NCBI GenBank assembly: GCA_949751835.1
Contig: CATKHK010000029.1
Location: 124,001 to 188,000 of the forward strand
Source of the DNA: Blepharisma japonicum
Taxonomy: Eukaryota > Ciliophora > Heterotrichea > Heterotrichida > Blepharismidae
Length of the DNA: 64,000 nt
Direction: 5' to 3'
The number at the start of each line of letters is the position of its first letter. Within the stretch, counting starts at the first letter, position 1. Below, in pieces: positions 3,417 through 61,852 of this stretch. Under the pieces are notes generated by a model. The model had not been told where the DNA came from. It worked only from the letters and a program-made list of their open reading frames with translations, and made no database searches. A program made the position numbers and the translations under genes.

Positions 3417-5498
3417 ATGTATTTGCTTGTGTTTCACTTTCCCAAGCCGGAAGAAAAGGATAAGGCCACAGTTATTGAGAATATTGAGGAAATTCTTATG
3501 GACGTCTTCCGCAAAAGTGATATCGGGCAGTTCGAGTTTCCAGAGAAAGTACCTTCATTACATAATTTATATCAGAGAAAAAATTGCACAAGATATGAAG
3601 TTTTAGAATGCATCCGCATTGGGGTGGTAGAAATCCTTCACCATTATTGTGGTATGGGGACATACATGTTCCAAAGTAGAGATGATGATGAAATATTTTG
3701 CAAAATTGAATGCACAGATGATATTTTATATGAAGAAGCAGACCTAAGCTGCTATAAGCTTCAAATGAATAGCGATTTAGAAGAAATCCCTCAAGTCAAA
3801 GAAATGATGCCTTATATACCATTTAGCAAAGAAAAATATTCGAAAAATCATAATCTCTATGCCAGATTTGGCGAAGGGCTATTAAGAAATGTGGACAAAA
3901 TCAGGCTTATGGAAAGAATCATAAGGTCTCATTTAAACGTTGAAATGATGATTAAGCACCAGCTTATCATTGATTTCTTCCCGCTTCATGAAGAAAGTGA
4001 GATTTCTTTTTTTAAGTCAACGCTCCTGAAGTATACAGAATTATCAATTGATGTGCCAATTCAGAGGATCAGAGACTATTTTGGAGAAAAAGTGGCGTTT
4101 TATTATCTTTGGCTTCAGTTTTACACAAATAAACTGTTTGTTTTGAGCTTTTTAGGCCTCATTTTGTGGGTGGTAGGATTTTTGAGATTTGGAACAACAG
4201 ATTCAAATTCTATATCGGTATATGAGTGGGGAGAATTGCTTTTTGCAGTTATTGTATGCTTGTGGGCAGCATTTTTCCAAATTTTCTGGGAGAGGTTATC
4301 AAAGTATTATGCATGCAAATTTGGAACACAAGATTCTAAGGAGCAAGAGCAAGAAAGAGAAGATTTTTCAGGGACTTTAGTTAAGAATCAAATCACTGGG
4401 ATGGTTGAAAAAGTTTTTCCTAAAAAGCAAAAGTTGTTAAGACAAGCAATTTCATATTGCTCTACATTATTTATGATCGGATTTGTTATTGCTCTAACTA
4501 TGTCCCTCTTTATCTATAGAGCATTATTATTAGAAGGCGGTTCAAGAGGATACGGACCTATGATTTTAGCAATTGCTAATACCCTTCAAATTGTGATCAT
4601 GAACAAAATATACGACTGGATGGCAGAAAAGCTCAATGACTGGGAAAATCATAAAACCCAATCAGACTACGAAAATGCATTTATTGTCAAAAAAGTTGGC
4701 TATCAATTTGTCAACTACTATATTTCTCTCTTTTACATTGCATTTATTAAAGAACACTTCGAAGGATGCGACAATAAAAATTGTATGGCAGAACTTAACT
4801 ATAACCTATGGGTAATGTTTATCATAAACCTCGTATTTAATGTAATCGAAATCACATCTCCTATACTTTCAGCTCAAGCTAAACTTGGCGAAGAAGAAAA
4901 AAAAGTGCAGTTAATGCATGCACAAGGAAAAGTTGCTAGAATTGAAATGAGTTATGCAGAAGCCCAAGGAAAATTCGATAAAATTGAGCTACTTGGCGAA
5001 TATTTGGAATTGGCAATGAATTATGGCTATATCATTTTCTTCTGTGTTGCATTTCCATTGGGGCCTTTTATTTATTGGCTTTACAATATATTAGAATTGA
5101 GATCAGACTCATATAAGTTTTTGACTCTAAGCAAAAGACCATTCCCTCAGGAAGCCTCAGATATTGGAGTCTGGTCAGATGTCATGAAATTCTTGTCATT
5201 TGTGGCAGTTATTACTAATATTGGATTAATGATTTTCACCAAGAACCTATTCTTGCTACCAGCTGCTGATAGATGGTGGGTGTTCATTATAATCGAGCAT
5301 ACAATTTTGCTGCTCATGATAATGCTTATTAACCATTATCCAAGTGTCAGCGAATTTTTGAAGAACTTAGAAATAAGGCATGATATCTTAACAAAACTTC
5401 ACTTCTATCAAAATTTAACAAAAGAAGGGACCAAAAAGGCCTTTGAGGTCAAGTTTACAGTTAATCCACAAGTTAACTTTAAGGATAATGAAAAGTAA
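3417..5498 (+). CDS. Anoctamin/TMEM16 family channel or lipid scramblase
   Basis: Intronless 693-aa ORF. A cytosolic N-terminal region of about 220 residues is followed by the family signature IRDYFGEKVAFYYLWLQFYTNKL leading into TM1 (about residues 236-255) and a multi-span core. The C-terminal half has the conserved block containing NYGYIIFFCVAFPLGPF, then ILELRSDSYKF, KRPFP and DIGVWSDVMKF, which match the anoctamin TM6-TM8 region. Family members are Ca2+-activated Cl- channels or phospholipid scramblases; sequence alone does not say which. The size is short relative to vertebrate members but normal for protists. Strong family call. Confidence 0.93.
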   Translation: MYLLVFHFPKPEEKDKATVIENIEEILMDVFRKSDIGQFEFPEKVPSLHNLYQRKNCTRYEVLECIRIGVVEILHHYCGMGTYMFQSRDDDEIFCKIECTDDILYEEADLSCYKLQMNSDLEEIPQVKEMMPYIPFSKEKYSKNHNLYARFGEGLLRNVDKIRLMERIIRSHLNVEMMIKHQLIIDFFPLHEESEISFFKSTLLKYTELSIDVPIQRIRDYFGEKVAFYYLWLQFYTNKLFVLSFLGLILWVVGFLRFGTTDSNSISVYEWGELLFAVIVCLWAAFFQIFWERLSKYYACKFGTQDSKEQEQEREDFSGTLVKNQITGMVEKVFPKKQKLLRQAISYCSTLFMIGFVIALTMSLFIYRALLLEGGSRGYGPMILAIANTLQIVIMNKIYDWMAEKLNDWENHKTQSDYENAFIVKKVGYQFVNYYISLFYIAFIKEHFEGCDNKNCMAELNYNLWVMFIINLVFNVIEITSPILSAQAKLGEEEKKVQLMHAQGKVARIEMSYAEAQGKFDKIELLGEYLELAMNYGYIIFFCVAFPLGPFIYWLYNILELRSDSYKFLTLSKRPFPQEASDIGVWSDVMKFLSFVAVITNIGLMIFTKNLFLLPAADRWWVFIIIEHTILLLMIMLINHYPSVSEFLKNLEIRHDILTKLHFYQNLTKEGTKKAFEVKFTVNPQVNFKDNEK

Positions 5499-7826: not shown

Positions 7827-9125
7827 ATGGGGAAAATGTTTGACTTAAAAAAGATAACAATTTTATCATCAAATTTTTTAACATTTGTTGCCTATGGAGT
7901 TCTTGGCCCATTCTTCCCAAAAGTAGCTGACAGCAAAGGTGTTTCTCAGTGAACAATTGGAATTATATTCAGTATAGTCCCAATTGTATCAATCCCTACA
8001 ATGGCATTTGTTAACGCTTATATGTACAAAATGGGCCGACGGTTCACATATTTGACGTCCTTATTTTTGCAAGGAGTCTCAATGATTCTTTTATGTTTTT
8101 TGGAGAGCTTAGACGAAACTGATTTAATTATTGTTAGCGTAATTTCACGGTTCATATTAGGAGTTGGAACTGGATTTATATGAGTCTCCACATTTGCTAT
8201 AGCGACAACAGAATTTAAAGATCACATTATAGAAGCAATCGGGCATATGGAATCAGCTGTAGGGCTAGGGCTAGTTGGAGGTCCACTAATTGGCACAGCT
8301 TTGTACGTTATTGGAGGATTCTCTACTATTTTTATTACAATTGGGATTATTTTTATGGTGTTTATACCAATTGCTTTCTTTAGTCTAAACAACTTAGAGC
8401 AATATTTGCCAAACCAAGTAAAAGTTGATACAATTAGATTATTTTGAAAACCTGTAAAATTTATATAGCAAATTCGATTGGCTTCTTATATGCCTTTTAT
8501 TGTGACAATCACAATGGGATTTATGATTAGCTCAATGGCTCTCCATTTAAAAGATTTTGGGGTTGGACAAGAGATGATTGGAGTTCTGTTTGCAGTCGAT
8601 GCAGTTAGCTACGGTGTTGGAGGAATTATTTTTTCAAAATTATCAGTAAAGATCGACAAAAGAATTATGATGATTGTAGGGTTGCTTGGAATGACTTTAA
8701 CTATGATATGTATGGGACCTGCTCCATTTTTACCGAGCAAACTTGGAATTGTGATTGCCTCTTTACCTCTCTTAGGGAGTACAAATTCATTGGCATATGG
8801 TAAGCTATATTTAGTTCCTTCGCTTCCTTATATGATTGAGAAATCTATTACAAAATACAATTATGAAGAAACTCCTCATTTGAGTGATGCATTATCATCA
8901 ATTGTTAATATATCGTTCTCTATAGGCGAAGCTTTAGGCAATATAGGTGCTGGAATAATGGTTGATTTTATTGGTTTCGAGTATAGTACATTTATTATTG
9001 CGATATTGATATTCGTTTTGGCTATAATATTTTTGTTGTCATCAGAAATCCTTTTATCATCACTGGAGACTAAGAAAGTTTATGAAGATGATGAATTAAT
9101 GAAACCATTGGACACTGTTGGTTAA
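7827..9125 (+). CDS. SLC18B1-like MFS transporter, copy 1 (two 15-nt introns)
   Basis: Exons are 7827-8453, 8469-8799 and 8815-9125, giving 422 aa with TGA read as Trp at several sites. The start MGKMFDLKK precedes TM1 and fits the long hydrophobic N-terminus. About 12 membrane segments are visible, with GRR after TM2 as a remnant of MFS motif A and, in the second half, a GPAPFLP segment and (after splicing) VPSLPYMIE, as in SLC18B1-type vesicular polyamine transporters. Substrate is unproven. Intron 2 lacks a stop in this copy, so an unspliced reading would insert five residues (KLYLV). Copy 2 is nearly identical. Confidence 0.85.
8454..8468 (+). other. 15-nt intron 1 of MFS copy 1
   Basis: GTAAAATTTATATAG, between the Pro codon CCT and Gln codon CAA. 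It contains an in-frame TAG, so splicing is needed to keep the frame. Confidence 0.9.
8800..8814 (+). other. 15-nt intron 2 of MFS copy 1, stop-free and in frame
   Basis: GTAAGCTATATTTAG, phase 1. It is a multiple of three and has no in-frame stop, so it is invisible to simple ORF calling. It is recognised because the paralogue has TAA at the same place. Confidence 0.8.
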
Positions 9126-10346: not shown

Positions 10347-11645
10347 ATGGGGAAAATGTTTAACTTAAAAAAGATAACAATTTTATCCTCAAATTTTTTA
10401 ACATTTGTGGCCTATGGAGTTCTTGGCCCATTCTTCCCAAAAGTAGCTGACAGCAAAGGTGTTTCTCAGTGAACAATTGGAATTATATTCAGTATAGTCC
10501 CAATTGTATCAATCCCTACAATGGCATTTGTTAACGCTTATATGTACAAAATGGGCCGACGATTCACATATTTGACGTCCTTATTTTTGCAAGGAGTCTC
10601 AATGATTCTATTATGTTTTTTGGAGAGCTTAGACGAAACTGATTTAATTATTGTAAGCGTAATTTCACGATTGATATTAGGAGTTGCAACTGGGTTTATA
10701 TGAGTTTCCACATTTGCTATAGTGACAACAGAATTTAAAGATCACCTTATAGAAGCAATAGGACATATGGAGTCAGCTGTAGGGCTAGGGCTAGTTGGAG
10801 GTCCACTAATTGGCACAGCTTTGTACGTTATTGGAGGATTCTCTACTATTTTTATTACAATTGGGGCTGTTTTTATTATATTTGTACCAATTGCATTCTT
10901 TAGTCTAAACAACTTAGAGCAATATTTGCCAAGCCAAGAAAAAGTTGATACAATTAAATTATTTTGAAAACCTGTAAAATTTATATAGCAAATTCGATTG
11001 ACTTCTTATATACCTTTAATTGTGACAATTACACTGGGATTTATGATTAGCTCAATGGCTCTCCATTTAAAAGATTTTGGGGTTGGACAGGAAATAATTG
11101 GAGTTCTTTTTTCAGTCGATGCAGTTAGCTACGGTGTTGGAGGAATTATTTTTTCAAAATTATCAGTAAAGATCGACAAAAGAATTATGATGATTGTAGG
11201 GTTGCTTGGAATGACTTTAACTATGATATGTATGGGACCTGCTCCATTTTTACCGAGCAAGCTTGGAATTGTGATTGCCTCTTTACCTCTCTTAGGGTTT
11301 ACAAATGCGTTGACTTATAGTAAGCTATAATTAGTTCCTTCGCTTCCTTATATGATTGAGAAATCTATTACAAAATACAATTATGAAGAAACTCCTCATT
11401 TGAGTGATGCATTATCATCCATTGTTAATATATCATTCTCTATAGGCGAAGCTTTAGGCAATATAGGTGCTGGAATAATGGTTGATTTTATTGGTTTCGA
11501 GTATAGTACATTTATTATTTCGATATTGGTATTTGTTTTGGCTATAATATTTTTGTTGTCATCAGAAATCCTTTTATCATCACGGGAGACTAAGAAAGTC
11601 GATCAAGATGATGAATTAATGAAACCATTGGATACTGTTGGCTAA
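10347..11645 (+). CDS. SLC18B1-like MFS transporter, copy 2 (two 15-nt introns)
   Basis: Exons are 10347-10973, 10989-11319 and 11335-11645; 422 aa, same length and intron positions as copy 1. By eye there are about 30 substitutions, mostly conservative and in membrane segments (e.g. F to L after VISR, FAVD to FSVD, MPF to IPL). No frame damage is seen once both introns are removed, so it is probably functional. Intron 2 here contains an in-frame TAA, which proves that splicing is required. Substrate unknown; a polyamine/amine-type substrate is suggested by the family only. Confidence 0.85.
10974..10988 (+). other. 15-nt intron 1 of MFS copy 2
   Basis: GTAAAATTTATATAG, identical in sequence and position to intron 1 of copy 1. 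Confidence 0.9.
11320..11334 (+). other. 15-nt intron 2 of MFS copy 2
   Basis: GTAAGCTATAATTAG; it differs from copy 1 by one base, which creates an in-frame TAA. Splicing restores the TTG ACT TAT ATT CCT reading, matching copy 1. Confidence 0.9.
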
Positions 11646-40490: not shown

Positions 40491-43400
40491 TTAAGCGCTC
40501 TGGTCTTCATTAGCTTTCAGCAAATAAGTTTTGATAACTCTATTCACTGACGGTATATCTACTTCTTGATGAAAACTGAACTTAAATGCCCCCGGCTTGT
40601 AATTATCAATAACCATCATAGTATCTTCGCTTATACAGATTGCTCCAGGAACTCCATTGCTCTCCATCTTATTAGCAATCAAGACATCAGATCCAAAAAT
40701 ATCGTATCTTATAATATTAGCTCCTGCGATTCCTCCAATGATACTGCCTGTATGGATCCCTACTCTCATCTTTAAGTTCAAAATTAAGCCATCATTGACA
40801 ATATCAATAGTCTGAAGAAGCGCTTGTGCAAAATTTATTATGTTGAGACACTCTTGTGACGGATTTCTTTCATAATCAGTGCCATTGAGTCCCATCGCAA
40901 CATAGCAATCGCCAATTGTGTGGACTTTATATACATTGAACTCAACACACAATTTATCAAATCTAGTGAAAAATTCAGAAAGCATGCCAACTACTTCTTT
41001 TGCTTCTTTATTGGAAGACCATAGTGTAAATCCTGCTATATCTGCATATAGCATTGTAACGTTGGCAAAAGTATCAGCGATTGCTATTTCTTCTCTTAAA
41101 TTATGAAATACATGTGGAGGCATCATTTGGGTTAATAAAGCTTCTATTTTTTCAATTTCTCTATTTGATGCATTTTCGATTGCTAGGAATCTTCTGAGAT
41201 TTTTTTCTCTATAGAATGTGACGAACTGTACAATTGTGGTATATCCCAGGACCATTATTGCTTCCTGGACTGCAAACATATGGTTTGAGAAAAATAATGA
41301 AATAATCCAAAAAATAGCTAATGACAACGATACCACAAACAAATTTTTAAAAAATAACCCTGTGCATTGGAGAAGAATGAAATACATAAGAAATACACTT
41401 GAAATCGCTGAAAATTCTTCTGATGTTTCAGTTTGCCAAAATTCAATAATTATCTTAGTAATTATTGACAGAGTGTAGAATATTTCAAGGATAATAGAAA
41501 AGAGTTTTTTTTTATGCATTTTTTTTATTACAGTAATAATCACTGCATAAATGATAGTTTCAGTGCTAAAAAAGCAGAGATCAGCTATTTTATATGACTT
41601 TGGTTCTTCGTTAATTGCGTCTGCTAAATTTGTAATAGTTAAAACAAAACAACTTACAAGTCCAACATAGTTGCCAAAAATTAGAGCTGAAGAATAATTT
41701 TCCAGCATTTGATGCCTGACTATCCTATCTTCATGAGTTTCGTTTATGTTGAATGGACAAAAATCTTCGATATTGAAATCTTCTTTAGGTATTTTTATAT
41801 TTGAAGTTGATAAATCAGACGATTTACGTTCAGACATGATAGTTGAATGGTTGCTAAAAACAATTGAATCAAACCTGATAGGGCTTTGTAAGCTAGCCAT
41901 CATTAGTGGGCTATTATTTCCTCATTGAACTGTTGGCAATAGAGGTATCATATCTTTAAAATCATCCTCAGGCGACTGATTTAGACTTACAAGGACTGTG
42001 CTCATTTGCCCTTTACCTTTTACACTAACTGATTTTTTGATAAAAGAAAGTCCTGAGTGGTCTCCGAGATGGCTATAAGTATTTTCTGAAATTTGAATTT
42101 TCGAGGAGTCAGTAAGCGTAGAAGCCATCCTACTTGCAGTATTTACAGTATCTCCAACCAGTGAAAATTGAGGCTTATGATATCCTACAACTCCTGCAGT
42201 TACTGGACCTGTATGAATCCCAATTTTTACCTTCAAAGGCTCTCCTTTACTTAAAAAAATCTTTTCAACTGTGCTTAGAATTTTTAAGCCCATTTCAACA
42301 CATCTTCTTGAATGAGGAATTGATCTGAAATAAGGTGATAATTCTAGCTCACTGTCTTTAAGGCCTGCACAAGCCATGTATACATTTCCAACAGTTTCTA
42401 TTTTAGTGACTCCTGTATTGTCACAAATATTATCAAATTTCCTATAAATTTCATCTAAAAATTGAATAATTTCGCTACTGGGATAATTTGAGATAATTTC
42501 TTCAAAATCATCAATATCACAGAAAAGAACAGAAACAACTCCTTGATCTTCTGCAATATATCTTATTCCATCTTTTACTCTTTTCCTCACAAACGCAGGC
42601 AACACGAAATTCAGCACCTGCTCTGATTTTTCCATTTCACTATCTACTTTCTTCAAGAACGTTCATCTTATTCGTTTCGTTTTAGAAGCAATATATACTC
42701 TTGCTGAGGAAATTGAAGAAACAGCTATATAAAGAGTTATCACTTCTGTTATATAAACTGGGTCCACTTGTGAATGTATAATAATGCATCCGCCATATAG
42801 AAAAATTGTAATAAATGTTACGAAATTCATTTCTATTCATATACCACTGACACCCAATAGGAAAAGAGGAGATCAATATAAATAAAGCTGCGTTGCTTGA
42901 AGTTTATACTCAAATATATTGATACAATAAATGATCATGTTAAAAATCACTGCTAAGATTACCATCTCTTTATGATATATTTGAAATAAAGATGTAAGTG
43001 AAAGTACTAATAATATGAAATAAATGAAGAAAGTAACAATAGTAAATATGCCAAAGGATTCAGGAGTGTCTGAATTACTTATTTCATAAACTTCAAGTCC
43101 TAAAAATGATAAATATGAACATCATAAAAATATTCGAAAATTATTGGAATTGTGGTTTGAATAAATTTGAAAATCGCTCTCAACCATTTTTGATCTGAAT
43201 TTCAAGGTCCAGGGATTTATTGCATAGGAATCGTGGTTGTGTTGAAATGAGTTCGATTTTTTATAGACAGACTCCATTTTATCTTTAAATTCCTCTAATC
43301 TTGAAGACACTTTTAAAGAAAAAATGTTTTTGCCTTTGACTTTTATCAAATCTACAAGCCTTGGATGAAAAAGTATTAAATAGAATTTGAAGAGAAAACT

Positions 43401-46400
43401 GATCGTTAAACACATTAATGGAAGAATGATGAAATAAATTCACAGAAGCGGACTTTCATATAATACATCTAAAATTCCATACTCTTCTACTTCGGGATTA
43501 CCAGATTTTACATTTAAAAATATTATCAGGCTTGCGATAGAGACCAGATATGAGAATACTGTTCACGTATTAAAAGCATTGACTTCAACTATAATATAGA
43601 CCATCGAAGCCCCATAAAGTGTGAGAAAAATTATTATTTCCATTGTGTAAATATCGAGCGTAAACCCTTTATCATTTATCAAATTTTGTATAAGATAAAT
43701 CGGTCAGTATATAATTATAGCATATAAAAAGGCTGCAGCAATTAGCATTATAAACTTTTTAGTCCCAAGTAAAACATAGTGGTTGCACGTAGTATACACC
43801 TGAGGAAATTTATATATCTGTCTACTGCTTAAATCTTCATCAAAGAGCTCACTTCCTACAATTGGAATTAATATCAAGAAAAATAAATAGAAAACTATTA
43901 AGTCTTGGTCTAGCATTGAGTCACAGTTGGAGTATGAAGAATTGCAATAAAAGAGCATAATAAAAGTTATCAAATAATTTACAAAAAATGACATCATAAT
44001 AACTTTTGATAAAATAATAAATTTGGTGTGTCCATGATACAGAAGAAGTTCTTTTAATTGAGAAAATCTTTGTGCTGCAGCATGCCCAACATGTTCAGTG
44101 CTTGATCTTACAATTCCAACACCAAGATGGGCAGTTTTTATCATTTCAATATCGCTAGATTCATCTCCAATAGCAAGTGTTGTTGGATCATAAGAAAATC
44201 CTGTTCTTAAAAATCTCACAATTTTTGCCTTGTCGTTAGGAAGTAAAGAATGAAAACATACACTTTCCGCTGAGCACAGTAACGCTGCTAAATATTTCCT
44301 ATTTTCTTCAGACTTCAAGCCATATTCAACAATGCTCCTATCAATTGATAGCACAAAGCTAACACTGCCTGGATCGACTGGATCTGAAAGAGGAGATCTT
44401 AATCTTCCTTCTTTAGAGATATTTGATATTAAAAATGGATTCACTGATCTTCTGCGTGCCTTACTTTTGCGCCGAACTCTATAAGGTGTACTTGACACAT
44501 AACGGCTAGGCGAATATGCTGGGTGTTGAATACTATTTTGATAAAGCATTTCAAAATTGGACATGACTCTATGAGGATTATTATCAAATGATGATTCATC
44601 TTTTAACAGCGTCGAAGCACCTATATTAGTATTTGTGTTAAAATGAAAAAGATTGATTTTTATTTGATCGATTAATTCCACGGTGCAGTCTCAGAGAGAA
44701 ATTACAGGGGTCATTTTCGAAATATTTGCACTTGATTTGAGCAAGCCTGATGTAACTCCAACGCTTAAAGTATTTTCTTCATTATCTCCACTTAGAATCC
44801 AAATTTTTATTCCCGCTCTAGTCAAAGTCTCAATAGTTTCTTTTGTTTCATCCAAGACTGTTTCTTCAAGACCTATTGCTCCCAAAAATTTCACTTCTTT
44901 TTCAAGTCTTGTGAACAAATCTTCAATTTTTTTATCGCTTATTGCAGGAAGAAGCTTAAAGTTATGATAGTCAATTTCAAATTCCTCAATTTCCTTTTTA
45001 CTTAGTTTTCTAAACCCGAAGACAATAATTTTTTTATCAACCATTTCAGAATGAGTTAATAAATCATCAATATATGCCATATCTTCAGAAGTATCATAAA
45101 ATAGTTTCATCATCGCTTCACTTGATCCGCTTACATATAAAATTGATGATTCAGTTTGAGGATTACTGATGATAATTCGTGATTTTTTGATATTGGGAGA
45201 TTTTCTTTGATGACCAATTATTTTTAACTTAAGTTCTTCATCTAATACGGTGATATCACAATCAAAGCTTGACTTTTTCTTAAATTTTATCCCCAAATCT
45301 TTGCTTGTCTCAATCATAGCTTTTTCCTCATTTGAAATTGGGCTCGAAATTTTGTCAGATCTCATAAATGTACTATTGCATACAGCCATACATATAAGGA
45401 AATGGTAAAAAACTGAGTCTGATTCAGAATTAATAAAATCTGCCTTTAAATCGGCAAACGACTTGAAATTTTTAGAATTAGTCCTAAGTAGCTCAGGAAT
45501 AATCAATGGAACCCTTGTGTCTGATTTATCATGATGATAAAAGCTTTCACAAGGAGATTGGGAAAAATCAGAGTTGTCTCTTATATAAATGTCACCAGCT
45601 ACAATGCATGTTTGTAATTTAATATCGCCATTGGTTAAAGTCCCAGTCTTATCTGCTAGAATATATTCAACCTGTCCTGCATCTTGCAAAGAGGAAAGAG
45701 AATTAATGTGAATATCATGAAACTTTTTGAGACTAAATGAAAAAATTAGCTTTACTGTTCTGAATGTAATAAATAAAGATATGGGAATAAGATAGCTGTA
45801 TAAAATTATAATACTTGCAATAAAATCAACGGTATCTTCATCTTTTCAATAGTTACTGCTGAAGATGTTATAAATAACAGTTATTAATATCAAAATTCCT
45901 GCAAAGCACATCATCACAAAAACTATTTTATTCATTCTTTTGTTAAAGGCTGAAAATTGTTCTCTAAATTTCAGTTTGTTGCCAGTATTTTCATGTGTGT
46001 ATATTACAACTCCTAAAATTCATTCTGAGTCTATTGGTTTAGCTCCACGAGGGATATAGTTTGAAGCAGAGAGCGCACTAGATTTTGGGTTCGATTCAAG
46101 CCTTATTGACCCTTTGAATTCCCCAGAAGTCCTATTGAGCGGGATTTTTATTATTGCTTTTATGCGGCTAATTAAAGTTACGGCTTCAAATTCATTAGCT
46201 TCCACTGCAAACTCCATTGTTTCTTTGATAGGCTTTTTTGATTCAAAGCTTGATTCCCCAATAACTCCTAGCATGTCCACGTAAATTTCAGATTCTCCGC
46301 GTTTTACACATAACAATAAAATATCTGCTGGGCACGCTTCTTTTTCTCTAATTTGAATAACGTCCCCAATCTTGATGTCTTTGCTCTTTTTCGCGACAAA

Positions 46401-46775
46401 ATTAAATCCATCACAAACCAGATATTCTTTATTGTTTATGTAGTTGTCATGCCGATGATTGGGTATGTCATGATAAGCATCTGAAATTAAAGTAATAAAA
46501 AGCAAAACCATAAAAGGAATAATTACAGCCGAAGAGTATATATTTGAGGTCGATAAGTGCAGCTGCAAAATAGATATAAGGAGAAATCAAAAATATCATA
46601 AATCTGAAAACTGGATAAATATATTTTTTGGAATAAGGTTCAATAATGTGTACTTGGCTGATTTTACTTCATTACTGATTGACTTAAAAACATCCTCGCT
46701 GTGACTTAATAGGTAAATTACTCGCCAATTTTCAGGTTTTAGTTTGTCTTTTGATTGCTGAAAAGGAAAATTCAT
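40491..46775 (-). CDS. P4-ATPase/guanylyl cyclase fusion (bifunctional, 2,094 aa)
   Basis: One uninterrupted frame when the many TGA codons are Trp; start ATG at 46775. N-terminal half, P4-ATPase: KYTLLNLIPKNIFIQF, GQVEYILADKTGTLT (Asp375), and a hinge AIGDESSDIEMIKTAHLGVG (GDGxND changed to GDESSD at 870-875). The A-domain DGET is degenerate (VIGESSF). C-terminal half: TM segments, cyclase domain at about 1410-1560 with Glu1460, Asn1545 and Arg1549, six more TM, then cyclase at about 1905-2075 with metal Asp1912 and Asp1956. The order of substrate and metal halves is inverted relative to mammalian adenylyl cyclase, as known for ciliate/apicomplexan guanylyl cyclases. Makes cGMP from GTP. Confidence 0.93.
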
Positions 46776-53718: not shown

Positions 53719-54615
53719 ATGAACATCGTATCTCCGCAACCTGAGTATGTTCGCTCACAGCATAAAGACACAGAAATTATGAGTTACTTCAAAACCTCGA
53801 TGCTGGAGATCATTGATGCTTGATTCGGGTCTAGGATTAACTTGAAATATGCAGCTGAAATATCAGTGCTTATTGAAATTTTATATTATGCGTCTGGGTT
53901 GATTTTTTCAAATACAAATGTGAAACAGACTTTGGGGCAAGAGTATGTGAGCAGCTCTATAGCTGATTTAGGAAAAGTTGCAAAAATTAAAAGAGTTTTG
54001 GTAAGCACGAATTACCCAAAAGCTGCACAACTTTTTAAGCCTGGAATGGTAAAGATGTGCTTGTATATTTTGGTTAAGACTGCTTTTCCATATGCAATTA
54101 AGAAATGAAGCAGGAGAAGTGAGGCGAAGTCAAGGAATACAGAAAATAAATCATGATATGACTGTCTTCCAAGTGCTGAAGAGATTTGAGATGAAGTTTT
54201 ATCAAAAGCACATTTAGCTTTGTTTCTATTGACTGGAGTGTATGATGAGATTGCTAAAAGAATCCTCAATTTAGTTTTTGTAAAGACCATTAGACCAAGA
54301 AATCCTTACTTTTTGTATAAAAGATTAGGATACCTCGTTTTAATACAAATATTTATAAGCACATATAAACTTACAAAAAGATTCTTGCTAAAAATGCGAG
54401 CGCTGAATGTTACAGAAACCCAGCAACTGGAAGAGATATTTGATAGTAAGGAATGCCCTTTGTGCATGTCTCCTTTAAGAAATCCTTCAGCAACTCCATG
54501 CGGACACATCTTCTGCTGGAGCTGCATCATGAGGGCTTCTCAAATCAACCCTATTTGCCCAAATTGCAGACAGCAATGCTTACCACAATCAATATTACAG
54601 CTGAGAAATCTTTAA
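53719..54615 (+). CDS. PEX10: Peroxisome biogenesis factor 10 (RING E3)
   Basis: 298 aa in one frame; four TGA read as Trp, so a standard-code ORF call splits it. The start MNIVSPQPEYVRSQHKD fits the PEX10 N-terminus, followed by membrane helices. C-terminal RING (about residues 250-290): CPLCMSPLRNPSATPCGHIF, CWSC and CPNC, the C3HC4 pattern with the PEX10-like ATPCGHxFCW core. PEX2/10/12 form the ubiquitin ligase that recycles PEX5. PEX10 is favoured over PEX12 (which has a degenerate RING). An acyl-CoA oxidase gene lies downstream at 63126. Confidence 0.88.
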
Positions 54616-54687: not shown

Positions 54688-57600
54688 ATGAAAGAAGAGA
54701 ATAAGTATCAATTGGATACAAATGATAAAGAAATTGTTGAGTTTTCAGGAATCACTGATTCAAGCCAAATCTATGAAGAGAAGCGTACAAAGGTTAATTT
54801 TGCAACAAAGATTGCAGAGGAATTAAATGAAATTCAAAAGGAGGAGAAAAGCGAAGAAATTAAACTTGACCAAAACGCTTTAGATGAAATTGAAAATATT
54901 ATTGCAAAAGCAGAAAAAGGACTCGAAAAAAGCTTGGAACAAAAAAAAGTTAATGAGCGGGGAGTTTATATTTCAGTTATTGCCTCAACTATTTTTGTAG
55001 TTATGTGTATGTTTGTTAACCGTGCTGAAAAAACAGCAGATCTTACTCAGCTAATCGAAAATATTTTATTAAAAAAGCCATGGCAAGTTGATCCAAATTT
55101 ATATTTTAAGGATATTGACCAAGTTCATCACATTGATAAATATTTGAGAATGGTACTTCTTCCAGGAATTTTGGAGGATAATTTTGTGGAAAATTATAAT
55201 TATGTTGTGGGTATCAGGCTTTCAATAAAATTGGCGGCGATGGAAGACAATCCATTCAGCGAGTATGAAGAAGCGGTTCAGAAAGTAAGATCGAATCCTG
55301 AAATGAGTCCATCTCATTCAAACTCAAACGAAATAACACACCCTCTTTTTGGGTTTAATTATGATCATGGAGGGGGATTTAGGCATTCTGGAGGCTATGT
55401 TCTCTGCTTCTTCAATAATTCATTAGAGGAGGCACTTTTAAAATGAAGGGAGTATAGGAATCTGATGATTAATTATGAGTTTGACAGCTTGGCTATTGAA
55501 ACAATACTCCATAATTCAAATATGGCTGTTACTTTGTACTATTACCAAACAATCGTCCTTGAAAGTACTGGGGAAATGAACAAGAAATTTGGAAATTCTG
55601 GAATTTTCCCTGAAACATTTGAAACTTTTAGCTCTGGTGGTACAATTCTACTCGCTTTTGGCTCAATTTACTTAATAGGCTTTTTAATACAAGTCTATAA
55701 TATGTTGCAAACTCTTATCCAAACCTTCAAAACATTATGGATGAAACTCAAATTTGAATTTGCATGACATGAATGGCTGGAGCTAATATCAATCATTTTT
55801 GTTTTAGCTTCATTTGGGTTATTTGGAAGCTTGATCTTAGGAAATATTGGAAAATATAAACTACCAATCACAGAGGAAAAGGATTTCACTGGATTAGCAG
55901 ATTATGCACAGTCATTTCGAGTATTAGTGAGATTAACAGCTCTAGCTGCTCTGATGACTTCATTTAAGATAATTGTTATGCTGAAAAATAAATTTCCTTC
56001 ATTTGGAGTACTATTTGATACAATTGATCTAGCAAAAACTTACATCATCAACTTTACCTTAATAATTATTTTTATCTTTATTTCCTTTTCCCTATTTGGG
56101 ATTTTTGGTTTTGGGCTAACATATGGCAAATATTCTAATTTTGGAGGATCATTGCTTTCGATCACAAGAGTTGCTTATGGAGAATTTGATGTAAAAAGTT
56201 TGGAAATTGCTAATGAAGCACTTGCAAAAATTTTTCTTATTGTTTTCGGTATGTGGGTGTTTTTTATTCTCAAGAGTACCCTAATTGCGATTGTTATTGG
56301 CAGTTACAATGAAGTAAAAAATCGTGATGAGTTGCTGCTTCAAGCGAAAGCTGATATGATTAAAGAAAAAAGTGACAATATTTTAAGAGCAATTGTAAAC
56401 TTAATATTTTGTAGAGCGAAAACAACATTAAATGAAGATGCATTGGAGTATCAGCAATTATCAACACTTGAAACAATGGTCCCTGAAAAACAAAATGAAA
56501 TTAATGAAAGGCTTAGAAAACTTGAAATCTCCATTCGTAATCAGAATCGTCTAAGCGTTTTTGAAGCAGTGAAATATAATATTGGACAGATATCTCAACT
56601 TGCTAAGTTTGGTGGAGGATTGATTACTCGTGAACAATTTTTACAGAAAATTAAAGACTGCATTAGAAAAATACTAAAAAAAAGAAAAATAGAAGAAATT
56701 TTGAGAAAGCAAAGAGGAAATGATGTGAATTATAATTTTAAAGTTCTTGTTGAGTTATTCATTTTCATTATCTTTTGATCCTTATTCATTACTCTTGTAG
56801 TAACTAGGCTTGAAGTTTCTTATGTTTATACTATATCCACCGAAACAAAAGATTCAATAATAGTTCCAAAATTCTATAGTGGTTGACACAATATAACTTT
56901 TCAAGAAATAGCAACAGACAAAGATGCCTACAATTTTATGAGCAAAGTTTTCAAAAATTATCTTCAAAAAGAAACTATTAATACCCAAAATCATTGAATA
57001 AGCCGGATTAAAGCAAGAATCACATTTACAAGATATCGGATGAGCAAAAATAAAAGCTCATTTTCTGATGGAGTCATTCCATATGTAATTCCAGATACAA
57101 GCACTCAAAACACAACTGACTTCCATGGTCTAATAAGTTTTGCTAAATATATTTATAATCCATCAGGAACGCTGAAGACTTACAAGTCTAAAGGAGGATA
57201 TGTAATAGAGTTAAATAACAAACAAAATATCTCAGATATAATTCAACAAATCGAGCTTGATGACATTTTTAATCGCAATCTCAAAGATTTTTATTTAGAA
57301 TGAGTCCTTTACAATCCCAATGTAAATATGTTTTCTTATAGTGTAATGCATTTCGATAAGCTCATTTCAGGCATTATTAAACCAGAAATTTATTCTGGAG
57401 TTATAGATCTTGATATATACAACTCAGGCTCTCCAATGATTACTATAAGTATCTTGTTCTTTATTTTTACTATTTTTTATTTAATCAAATTTTGTTATTC
57501 ATGATATTTGGTCTGGAAAAAAGTGAATAAGCAAAGGAAGGAAAAAAACCTTATTTGAAAAATAGCAGGATATGTGATTGATAAAATTGAAGAGAATGAA

Positions 57601-59505
57601 ATTAGTTTAAGAGAGCATTGCTTTAGATTTCTTAAAAAAACTTTAGCCTGATGCTGATACACCATAATAGATCTATTATATTCAGCATGATTATTAATTA
57701 AAGGAGATATTTTTCAATTATTCAGCATTGTTTCAACAATAATGTCGCTGATGATGATTTATTATGAAATAATACTTGTTAAGAGTAGTTTTTATCAAAA
57801 TTTTAAACTAGATTCTGCTTTTGTGACCTGAGAGAACTGTATAGGTGAATTTTCCAAAATAAATGATATTTTGTATATATCTGGGACAATAGCTATGTTT
57901 ACATGCTTAATTTTATTTTTGAGGCTAATTCAATATTTTGAATTCAGTGATCATTTATCAAACCTTGCAGATGTTATTAAATCTGCATCATTTGACTTAG
58001 CATTCTTCACAATTGTTTTTATGATTATTCTAACTGCGTATGCAATTTCTAACTATCTAGTTTTAGGTCACCATGATCTAAGTTTCAAATTCATGGAATA
58101 TTCTTTATTGTCTACTTATTCAATGCTATTGTGCTATTATGACATTGGCTCAATATTGCAAGCTGACAATTTGTTAGGTGGGATACTGTTTATAAGCTAT
58201 ATGGTGATCTTCAATTTTATGATGCTAAACTTATTTATAGCTATCATTTTTGCTCATTATACAGCACTTAAATCAACCCGTCCTAAGAATAGACTTGGAT
58301 TTTTTGAAAAACTTTGAAAAGTCATTAAATATAAATTCAAAAACAGAAAATTAATCATCGATCCAAATAAAATCAAAAAAACTGAAGATATCCCTGATAA
58401 TAACATGTTTGTAAATTATAGCCCAACCATATCTGAAGATGCGTATATAATTGATGATAAAGCTCACATAGATGCCTCCTTAAATAAATGGCTCAAACGT
58501 TTAGAAGATTTTGTTGCTGATCATTCAGGGAATGAGATAAATTTTGGTGGATTAAAGGCAGATTTCAATAAATATTGTGAGATTGTGAATACTGATTTAG
58601 TTCAGCCAGTTCATTTAAGTGAGGTTTGCTTCATGAACCCAGAAATATGAAAAAATGAAAATATCGAGCAGAAAATAAGGATTTGAAGAAAACTAACAAA
58701 TATATATGCAGAAGAGTATAGGTTGGGAATAGAAAAATCTATAAGTGAAGGGAAAGATCCAAGAGAGCATGGATTATCTCCTTTGCAGAAGCAACTATGA
58801 GAAGCTACACCTATGCCCGAAAAATTTGAAATGTGGAGTGGAAAATTTCATTTTTCTGAGGAAGAAAGGATTAGAATATGAAACTCAACGAGCTATAGCA
58901 AAGAATTTATGGAAAAGGACACAAATATAGAAGAGCAGAAGAGTTATTGACTTTCGTTAACTATTATGCAAAAAGATGATTTGGTTTCTAAAATTCTAGG
59001 CCCTTTTAAAAATATTAAGAAAAAAATTAAAAACGAGGAAACTTTCCTTGATTTTTATATCAAAAATGAGCTATTATTTACTAATAATACAAAGATGCTC
59101 TTATGAGCCTGCTTATACGAGCATGAAATTAGCAAATTTTTGCTTTTTATGAATCAAAATGATAAAGTTGAGGCTGAAATTATGGCTTACATGATTATGG
59201 ATGACAAAAAACACAATTTATTTGCAATGGACCATGCGGATCTTAACATGGAAGCAATTTTCGATGCCAAAATATTTGATAAATATACAGAAATGGCCAC
59301 TTTTCAATCAGAAAATGATTGCAAAAAATCATGCGATGAAAGAATCTTTGAAACAAATACAGAGCACAGAAATCTGATAAACTATAGCCACAGTCTTCAA
59401 GAGGATGCAAAAAAATACACTAGAGAAAATAAGAAACTAAAAAATAGAATTAAAGAACTTAGGTCCAAACTCCAAAATAGATACGATATTTCCAGTCTAT
59501 TATAA
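54688..59505 (+). CDS. Tandem polycystin (TRPP-like) channel: two full 6-TM modules in one chain
   Basis: 1,605 aa in one frame; about a dozen TGA codons read as Trp. Module 1: S1 92-110, large extracellular TOP-like domain, S2-S5 (about 317, 364, 411, 452), pore TRVAYGEFD (near 497) and S6 514-541 with the polycystin-like FILKSTLIAIVIGSYNEVKN. A basic, coiled linker (541-686) leads to module 2: S1 687-710, a second TOP-like domain with YVIPD/SYSVMHF segments, S2 918-942, S3-S5, pore region 1131-1158, and S6 FNFMMLNLFIAIIFAHYTAL. The second pore lacks the G-D/E-F selectivity-type residues. The 410-residue tail is charged and ends in a coiled coil. Probably a ciliary or ER cation channel. Confidence 0.85.
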
Positions 59506-61018: not shown

Positions 61019-61852
61019 ATGGAGGCCACCAAAGTTCGTGCAGTTCTCTTCAAAAATGAGCAGCATCCAAGCGATGGAAAGCAAGTTCTTATCAGTCCTC
61101 ACATATCTAAAGAAGAACTATTATCATTAGCTTCTCAGGAGCTTGGGATCTCTGCAAAAAAAATATTTTCAGATACAGGCTTACTTTTAAACAACATATC
61201 AACTATCGCAGACGGCGTGACATTCTATGTTTCACAAGGTGAAAATTTTCAAGTAAAATCAAGTGGCGCTCCACAAAAAACCAGCAAAAAATACGTAATT
61301 GCTGTGCTTGGGGCTGCTGCCGTAGGAAAATCTGCAATAACCTTAAGATATGTCAACAACAAATTTGTTAGAGACTATGATCCAACTATTGAAGATTATT
61401 ATACAAAAAATGCGATTATTGATGGTGAGCCGACGGTTTTATCAATTTTAGACACAGCAGGGATGGAGGACTATTTCCCATTAATTGATGATTGGATTGA
61501 CAATAAGGATGGGTTCATTTTAGTCTTCTCAGTGGAGCTCCCTGATTCTTTGCAAAGATTGAGATATTTCCAAGACAAAATATTGCATAGATATAGTCAG
61601 CAAGGGAACAAAGGGCCAGTAACCATTATGGCTGCTAATAAAGTCGATTTGCCTAATAGAAATGTGTCAAGCGAAGAAGGGAGAAAAGTAGCTGAAAGCA
61701 TGGGCTTAAAGTATATGGAAGTGTCAGCTGCTACAGCTTCTGGAGTTGATGATCTCTTTGCTGAAATCATCAGAGTGCTTAGATCTAGAAGGGCAACAAA
61801 TAAACCTGTAAACAAAGAGCCATGGTACAAAAAAATGTGCTCTCTTCTATAA
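61019..61852 (+). CDS. Doublecortin-like/Ras GTPase fusion, geranylgeranyl-type CaaX
   Basis: 277 aa. Residues about 5-78 resemble a doublecortin/ubiquitin-type fold (VRAVLFKNEQHPSDGKQVLI; ISAKKIFSDTG, then IADGVTFYVSQGENF). Residues 91-260 are a Ras G-domain: P-loop GAAAVGKS (98-105), switch I YDPTIEDYY, DTAGME (145-150), NKVD, SAAT, and a polybasic region before the C-terminal Cys-Ser-Leu-Leu. Ras G12, G13 and Q61 correspond to Ala100, Ala101 and Met149; each is a change that lowers GTP hydrolysis in Ras. It may therefore stay GTP-bound (inference). CSLL predicts geranylgeranylation and a membrane location. Confidence 0.85.
   Translation: MEATKVRAVLFKNEQHPSDGKQVLISPHISKEELLSLASQELGISAKKIFSDTGLLLNNISTIADGVTFYVSQGENFQVKSSGAPQKTSKKYVIAVLGAAAVGKSAITLRYVNNKFVRDYDPTIEDYYTKNAIIDGEPTVLSILDTAGMEDYFPLIDDWIDNKDGFILVFSVELPDSLQRLRYFQDKILHRYSQQGNKGPVTIMAANKVDLPNRNVSSEEGRKVAESMGLKYMEVSAATASGVDDLFAEIIRVLRSRRATNKPVNKEPWYKKMCSLL

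Follow-up and report, generated by a model that had tools for sequence, protein, structure and literature searches.

To our knowledge, TRP channels carry one six-TM module per chain. Two-pore channels (TPCs) are assembled from two chains that together form one pore, with the halves alternating around it; as far as we know, they have no polycystin loop. For Paramecium, two close PKD2 genes and a more distant one have been described, and a two-channel form goes unmentioned in the available excerpt of that source (PMC6627415). Among the apicomplexan TRPP or TRPML/TRPP homologues, some have 12–19 predicted TM segments and others 6–8 (PMC3194816, Table 2, in excerpt), and TgTRPPL-2, a protein of 2191 residues, has 14 predicted TM segments with a large loop after TM1 (PMC8216714, in excerpt). 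Here, we describe a gene from the ciliate Blepharisma japonicum that encodes two polycystin channel modules in a single frame. It lies in a 64,000-nucleotide stretch of DNA ("the window," i.e., the whole stretch that was analyzed; C29:124001-188000) and was compared with the genome as a whole (45 Mb in 224 contigs).

The gene (positions 54688–59505 of the window, plus strand, stop codon included) runs from ATG to TAA as one 1605-residue frame under translation table 4, that is, with TGA read as Trp, and can be read without introns. Trp is encoded by 19 TGA and 7 TGG codons, and the calculated mass of the product is ∼188 kDa. TAA and TAG are absent from all 1605 codons, as compared with 44–99 occurrences in each of the five other frames, and the open frame is thus no chance product; read with table 11, the same stretch is split into short ORFs. 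The use of TGA for Trp fits the known Blepharisma code: Blepharisma stoltei has UGA as a Trp codon, CCCTAACA as its telomere repeat, introns of mostly 15–16 nt, and a genome of 41 Mbp (PMC9942806, in excerpt). In the present assembly, contig C4 carries 13 copies of TGTTAGGG in its last 400 bases and one CCCTAACA in its first 400, and no telomere repeats were seen at eight other contig ends examined. Frames elsewhere in the genome use TGA as well. In one single-channel gene (L017), two 15-nt GTA..TAG stretches, taken as introns, coincide with the stops of the frame, and with both stretches removed the gene is open over 715 residues.

Several other genes were recognized in the window. A Pex2/Pex12-like protein with a RING finger is encoded at 53719–54615 (plus strand), and 72 bases separate it from the polycystin gene that follows. 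A Ras-family GTPase at 61019–61852 (plus strand) has an N-terminal extension of ∼90 residues with a weak likeness to the KHA domain (26.6 bits, under the cut-off of 29.6). An Anoctamin-family protein of 693 residues lies at 3417–5498 (plus strand), and two near-identical, tandem transporter-like frames of 213 residues each, at 7827–8468 and 10347–10988 (plus strand), point to a recent duplication. The 2094-residue frame at 40491–46775 (minus strand) combines a phospholipid-translocating P-type ATPase with two guanylate cyclase domains, a layout that occurs in ciliates and apicomplexans.

Each half of the polycystin protein has the layout of a complete channel. Hydropathy, averaged over the five full-length paralogues introduced below and given in the numbering of the window protein, resolves six main peaks in either half and, behind the first of them, a loop of ∼200 residues. 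In half 1, S1 (residues 92–110; 54961–55017) is followed by the predicted extracellular loop (residues 111–318; 55018–55641) and by S2–S6 (residues 319–536; 55642–56295), with peaks at residues 319–337 (S2), 366–384 (S3), 412–430 (S4), 453–471 (S5), and 518–536 (S6). In half 2, S1' (residues 686–704; 56743–56799) is followed by a second such loop (residues 705–917; 56800–57438) and by S2'–S6' (residues 918–1187; 57439–58248), with peaks at residues 918–936 (S2'), 1012–1030 (S3'), 1066–1084 (S4'), 1108–1126 (S5'), and 1169–1187 (S6'). An additional, weaker hydrophobic stretch precedes S3' (residues 986–1004), and there are minor shoulders. The predicted cytosolic tail (residues 1199–1605; 58282–59502) is conserved across the five paralogues and matches nothing in the PDB at E < 0.1 and nothing in Pfam above cut-off. 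All of these features lie on the plus strand.

Pfam finds two PKD_channel matches and one Polycystin_dom match in the whole window protein. When each half is searched alone, PKD_channel is matched in the S2–S6 region by both (44.4 bits for half 1 and 51.2 bits for half 2; cut-off 22.4). In the whole protein, Polycystin_dom is matched only in the loop of half 2 (residues 823–900, 26.1 bits; cut-off 23.6). The loop of half 1 falls under that threshold in the window copy, though it aligns by profile with the loop of half 2. Ion_trans is below cut-off in the window copy and above it in the two copies on C4, the copy on C143, and the protein from C65 (see below). No Pfam match to EF-hand, PLAT, or GPS/GAIN domains was found among the two-channel proteins. 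An earlier sequence-only reading of this DNA had proposed two polycystin channels in one polypeptide, each half with S1, a large extracellular domain, and S2–S6 including a pore; the single frame, the PKD_channel match in each half, the hydropathy, the loop lengths, and the profile matches bear out the two channels in one polypeptide and the six segments, loop, and pore stretch of each half.

The window gene belongs to a family. Searching the genome with its protein returned four more full-length matches (35–38% identity), two on C4 and one each on C143 and C10. Together with the window gene, the four paralogues are single frames of 1561–1610 residues, and they align with the window protein from end to end, including linker and tail, at 34–37% identity. 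A sixth, divergent gene (L009:3078-7073, minus strand, on C65) encodes 1332 residues with two PKD_channel and two Polycystin_dom matches and follows the five-member profile in collinear order (99.9%, 22% identity). Six genes thus have two channel modules per chain, in place of the one module per chain that is the polycystin trait, and a single-frame architecture with two polycystin modules is well supported by these predicted proteins. An assembly join, named in the sequence-only reading as one of the findings that could overturn it, is excluded, because five additional genes, located on four other contigs, also encode two channels per frame.

Across the genome there are 35 PKD_channel matches, this and the following channel counts being lower bounds. 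The six two-channel genes account for 12 of them and the single polycystins for 5. Another 13 belong to four-domain genes of the Cav type, 11 in number, each with four Ion_trans stretches. The remainder are 3 matches in mucolipin-like genes (C11, C49, and C78) and 2 in TRP-like genes whose N termini are long (C12 and C48), these last two labels having been assigned by inspection. With a sixth single polycystin, on C43, that is matched by PF20519 alone, 12 polycystin genes were recognized, and half of these (6/12) have the two-channel layout. One of the single polycystins (L012:3938-6619, minus strand, on C66; 894 residues) has a long N-terminal extension, its Polycystin_dom starting at residue 391. 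Four-domain channel genes number at least 11 in this ciliate (on contigs C6, C16, C26, C51, C71, C95, and C159); two loci on C6 and C26 that the spacing of matches had brought up as further two-channel genes proved to be four-domain channels and were rejected. A search with the five-member alignment confirmed no relatives among 58 pattern matches in a viral-contig collection and 27 in a genome-contig collection. Similar sequences may well exist unannotated elsewhere.

Both halves are polycystins in their own right. Profiles built from the five N halves and from the five C halves, when compared with the PDB, each place PKD2L1/PKD2 chains first (E = 1.4e-12 and 1.4e-32, respectively), and the two profiles match each other over 462 columns that include the extracellular loop (99.2%, 17% identity). 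As single sequences, the halves are barely alike (23% identity over 104 residues, E = 0.016). Likeness by profile that has nearly vanished between single sequences indicates that the doubling is old. In a tree of 20 rows, obtained after two long-branched single channels (L034 and L015) had been dropped from a first, less resolved tree of 22 rows, the five N halves form one clade (100/100) and the five C halves another (100/99), and L010, L011, and L013 group together in both clades, with L010 nearest to L011. The joining of the halves is older than the spread of the five-member family, and the two halves have evolved as one chain. The halves of the C65 protein pair with each other, with support of only 70/77, and may be each other's nearest kin, so that the two-channel layout may have arisen twice in this lineage, in the five-member family and in the C65 gene. 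AU tests reject none of the groupings tried: monophyly of the six N halves (p = 0.224), of the six C halves (p = 0.237), of all 12 halves (p = 0.416), or of the 10 halves that make up the five-member family (p = 0.394). The trees do not discriminate between duplication and the fusion of two channels as the origin of the layout.

The linker between the halves (residues 546–682, 137 residues; 56323–56733, plus strand) contains 27 Lys and Arg versus 19 Asp and Glu and no stop codons. It had been described in the sequence-only reading as basic and free of both stops and ATG; the first two properties are as stated, but there are Met residues at 557 and 597, and the third holds just for residues 598–682. 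Among five regions of the chain, the linker has the lowest pN/pS in all five paralogue pairs examined, out of 10 possible pairs. Over the whole chain, dS is 0.493 and dN is 0.083 for the closest pair; the wider pairs are saturated at synonymous sites, and for them the ranking alone is informative. In the closest pair, pS is low in the linker (0.137 versus 0.361 overall), and part of its likeness may therefore be due to gene conversion. Invariant columns make up 36/135 of the linker (0.27), a share similar to that in the loop of half 1 (59/208, 0.28) and higher than in the channel segments (0.23 and 0.16). The pN/pS values show a linker under selection, and, because it is both open and conserved, expression of the halves from two separate transcripts is very unlikely.

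The selectivity filters distinguish both the two pores and the family members. In PKD2L1, D523 forms the inner and D525 the outer filter site, and the D523N mutation abolishes Ca2+ block and reduces Ca2+ selectivity (PMC4922860, in excerpt). With the register taken from the PDB profile alignments of the N and C halves, these sites are E and D in pore 1 of the window protein (GEFD, residues 498–501; 56179–56190, plus strand) and Y and D in its pore 2 (CYYD, residues 1149–1152; 58132–58143, plus strand), in agreement with the earlier remark that pore 2 lacks the typical G-D/E-F residues. The inner site of pore 1 is occupied by L, I, I, and K in L010, L011, L013, and L016, respectively, the acid being displaced one place further in the first three and two places in L016. 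In pore 2 of the same four proteins, the inner site is K, N, Q, and Q, and the outer site is S, S, N, and N. An acid at the D523 site is thus present in one of five N halves (the Glu of the window protein) and in none of the five C halves (Y, K, N, Q, and Q). The C65 protein has FDNID in pore 1 and GEFN in pore 2, such that the canonical G-E-F filter is found in opposite halves of the two proteins. The halves are specialized, since the filter residues differ between pores and between members.

We propose, with a probability of roughly two in three, that these proteins are natural tandem-dimer TRPP channels, in which two chains with two unlike modules each would form a pseudo-tetramer with a 2+2 filter. 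Each chain comprises two unlike six-TM polycystin modules, with a separate predicted extracellular domain after S1 in each, connected by the conserved, putatively cytosolic linker and followed by the ∼400-residue tail. Two chains would pair, perhaps via a C-terminal coiled coil, and enclose one central cation pore with the halves alternating N-C-N-C, on the pattern of the TPCs, from which analogy we infer the two-chain stoichiometry. In the window copy, the inner site of the filter ring would then be lined by two Glu and two Tyr and the outer site by four Asp, and the fusion itself would set the 2:2 ratio of module types. Family membership makes a role in Ca2+/cation conduction across the ciliary or surface membrane likely. 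Single-sequence AlphaFold runs on each half alone gave mean pLDDT values of 40.5 and 42.3, and the models were unusable and were set aside.

The putative coiled coil, close to the C-terminal end (residues 1567–1601 of the window protein; 59386–59490, plus strand), is formed by a heptad repeat in which most d positions are Leu and an a position is occupied by Asn; Asn at this position favors two-stranded coils. Four full-length members share the register; in the fifth, L016, the best-scoring window lies elsewhere. The C65 protein has a heptad repeat of its own with Asn at a, and such a repeat is thus present in five of the six two-channel proteins. Out of 500 shuffled sequences, 54 scored as well for the window protein (P0001), in which the repeat is weak, 17 for L010, 37 for L011, 9 for L013, 36 for L016, and 1 for the C65 protein (L009). 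Among six single-channel tails, five had repeats no better than shuffles, and the sixth was too short. Because the score relative to shuffles is uneven, we take the repeat as a hint of two chains per channel.

Four other readings of the same data are less probable. Were the linker cut, the two subunits could form an ordinary heteromer, and the fusion would merely secure their equal supply. Cleavage of the chain is possible by analogy: TgTRPPL-2, a TRPP-like protein from another alveolate, gives bands of ∼115–150 kDa rather than the 237 kDa of the full chain and was judged to be cleaved (PMC8216714, in excerpt), and Chlamydomonas PKD2 is reportedly cleaved from a 210-kD protein (PMC6627415, in excerpt). 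However, a conserved linker with the strongest constraint by pN/pS exceeds what a mere cut site would need, and we consider a precursor unlikely. That the chain itself is an artefact, with neighboring genes joined by misassembly or by readthrough of a true stop, is barely conceivable. The in-frame TGA codons do break the frame under the standard code, and an in-frame, AT-rich GT..AG stretch of 15 nt occurs near residue 1240; yet 1.6-kaa frames with the linker included are found in five genes spread over four contigs, and the reading of TGA as Trp agrees with the Blepharisma code (PMC9942806, in excerpt).

Alternatively, only one half might line the working pore, with the other as its non-conducting regulator, as for PKD2 with a PKD1-type partner, and the sequence-only reading had likewise suggested that pore 2 may be regulatory. 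The window protein, which keeps G-E-F in pore 1 and not in pore 2, fits this suggestion, as do the missing inner acid of pore 2 in all five family members and the 3:1 mixing of unlike subunits in animal polycystins (PMC6627415, in excerpt). Against it, the inner acid is also missing from four of the five N halves, S5, the pore stretch, and S6 are kept in both halves of all five proteins, and in the C65 protein it is pore 2 that carries the canonical G-E-F. A regulatory pore 2 thus finds only partial support; a conducting pore 1 with a regulatory pore 2 is too simple a description and does not hold across the family, and we regard a division into sensor and channel as distinctly improbable; being compatible with a 2+2 ring, it is a rival only in part. 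Finally, four chains per channel could place the N halves and the C halves in separate tetramers with two pores, for which the six segments and the pore stretch kept in both halves could speak. Two-domain channels of this superfamily are established to form one pore from two chains, and we know of no precedent for a four-chain, two-pore arrangement, which seems very improbable. The tandem dimer remains our preferred reading.

The two-channel architecture is real, conserved among paralogues, and undescribed within the open-licence literature searched, which gave no account of a two-channel TRPP layout. Within the same literature, the claim of the sequence-only reading that this is not a described TRPP layout stands, with the many-TM apicomplexan homologues as a caveat (PMC3194816, in excerpt). 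More tentatively, and with the balance somewhat against it, these genes might define a separate class of TRP channels, tandem dimers with an obligate 2:2 pore, whose two-domain stage would be independent of TPC and Cav/Nav ancestry. The layout would force channels to assemble from fixed pairs of unlike halves; if the proposal is correct, mixed filters become open to study without co-expression, and the family offers a parallel, outside the Ca2+ and Na+ channels, to the two-domain step thought to have preceded their four-domain forms.

The closest known systems each share part of this design. Like polycystin-2 and PKD2L1, the best PDB matches of both halves, the modules have six TM segments, a large post-S1 loop, and a PKD_channel match; unlike them, two unlike modules are present per chain rather than one, the filters mostly lack the inner acid, and there is no EF-hand match in Pfam. 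The PKD1 family, with PLAT and GPS/GAIN domains and 11 TM segments, is not matched, as no such domains are found by Pfam and the TM count here is 6+6. The apicomplexan TRPP-like proteins, such as TgTRPPL-2, are likewise large alveolate proteins with many predicted TM segments; in the available excerpts they are not presented as two fused channels. TPCs have two six-TM modules per chain and form dimers, as we propose here, but they are not close kin: the PDB sequences listed for halves 1 and 2 (31 and 51, respectively) include no TPC. In the PKD1-PKD2 and PKD1L3-PKD2L1 heteromers, unlike polycystin modules meet in one channel, as we infer for the present family, but they do so as separate chains in a 3:1 ratio (PMC6627415; PMC4377555, both in excerpt). 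Animal polycystins arrive at 3:1 by combining separate subunits; the Blepharisma genes, if the tandem-dimer reading is correct, would constitute a natural, genetically fixed 2:2 polycystin family.
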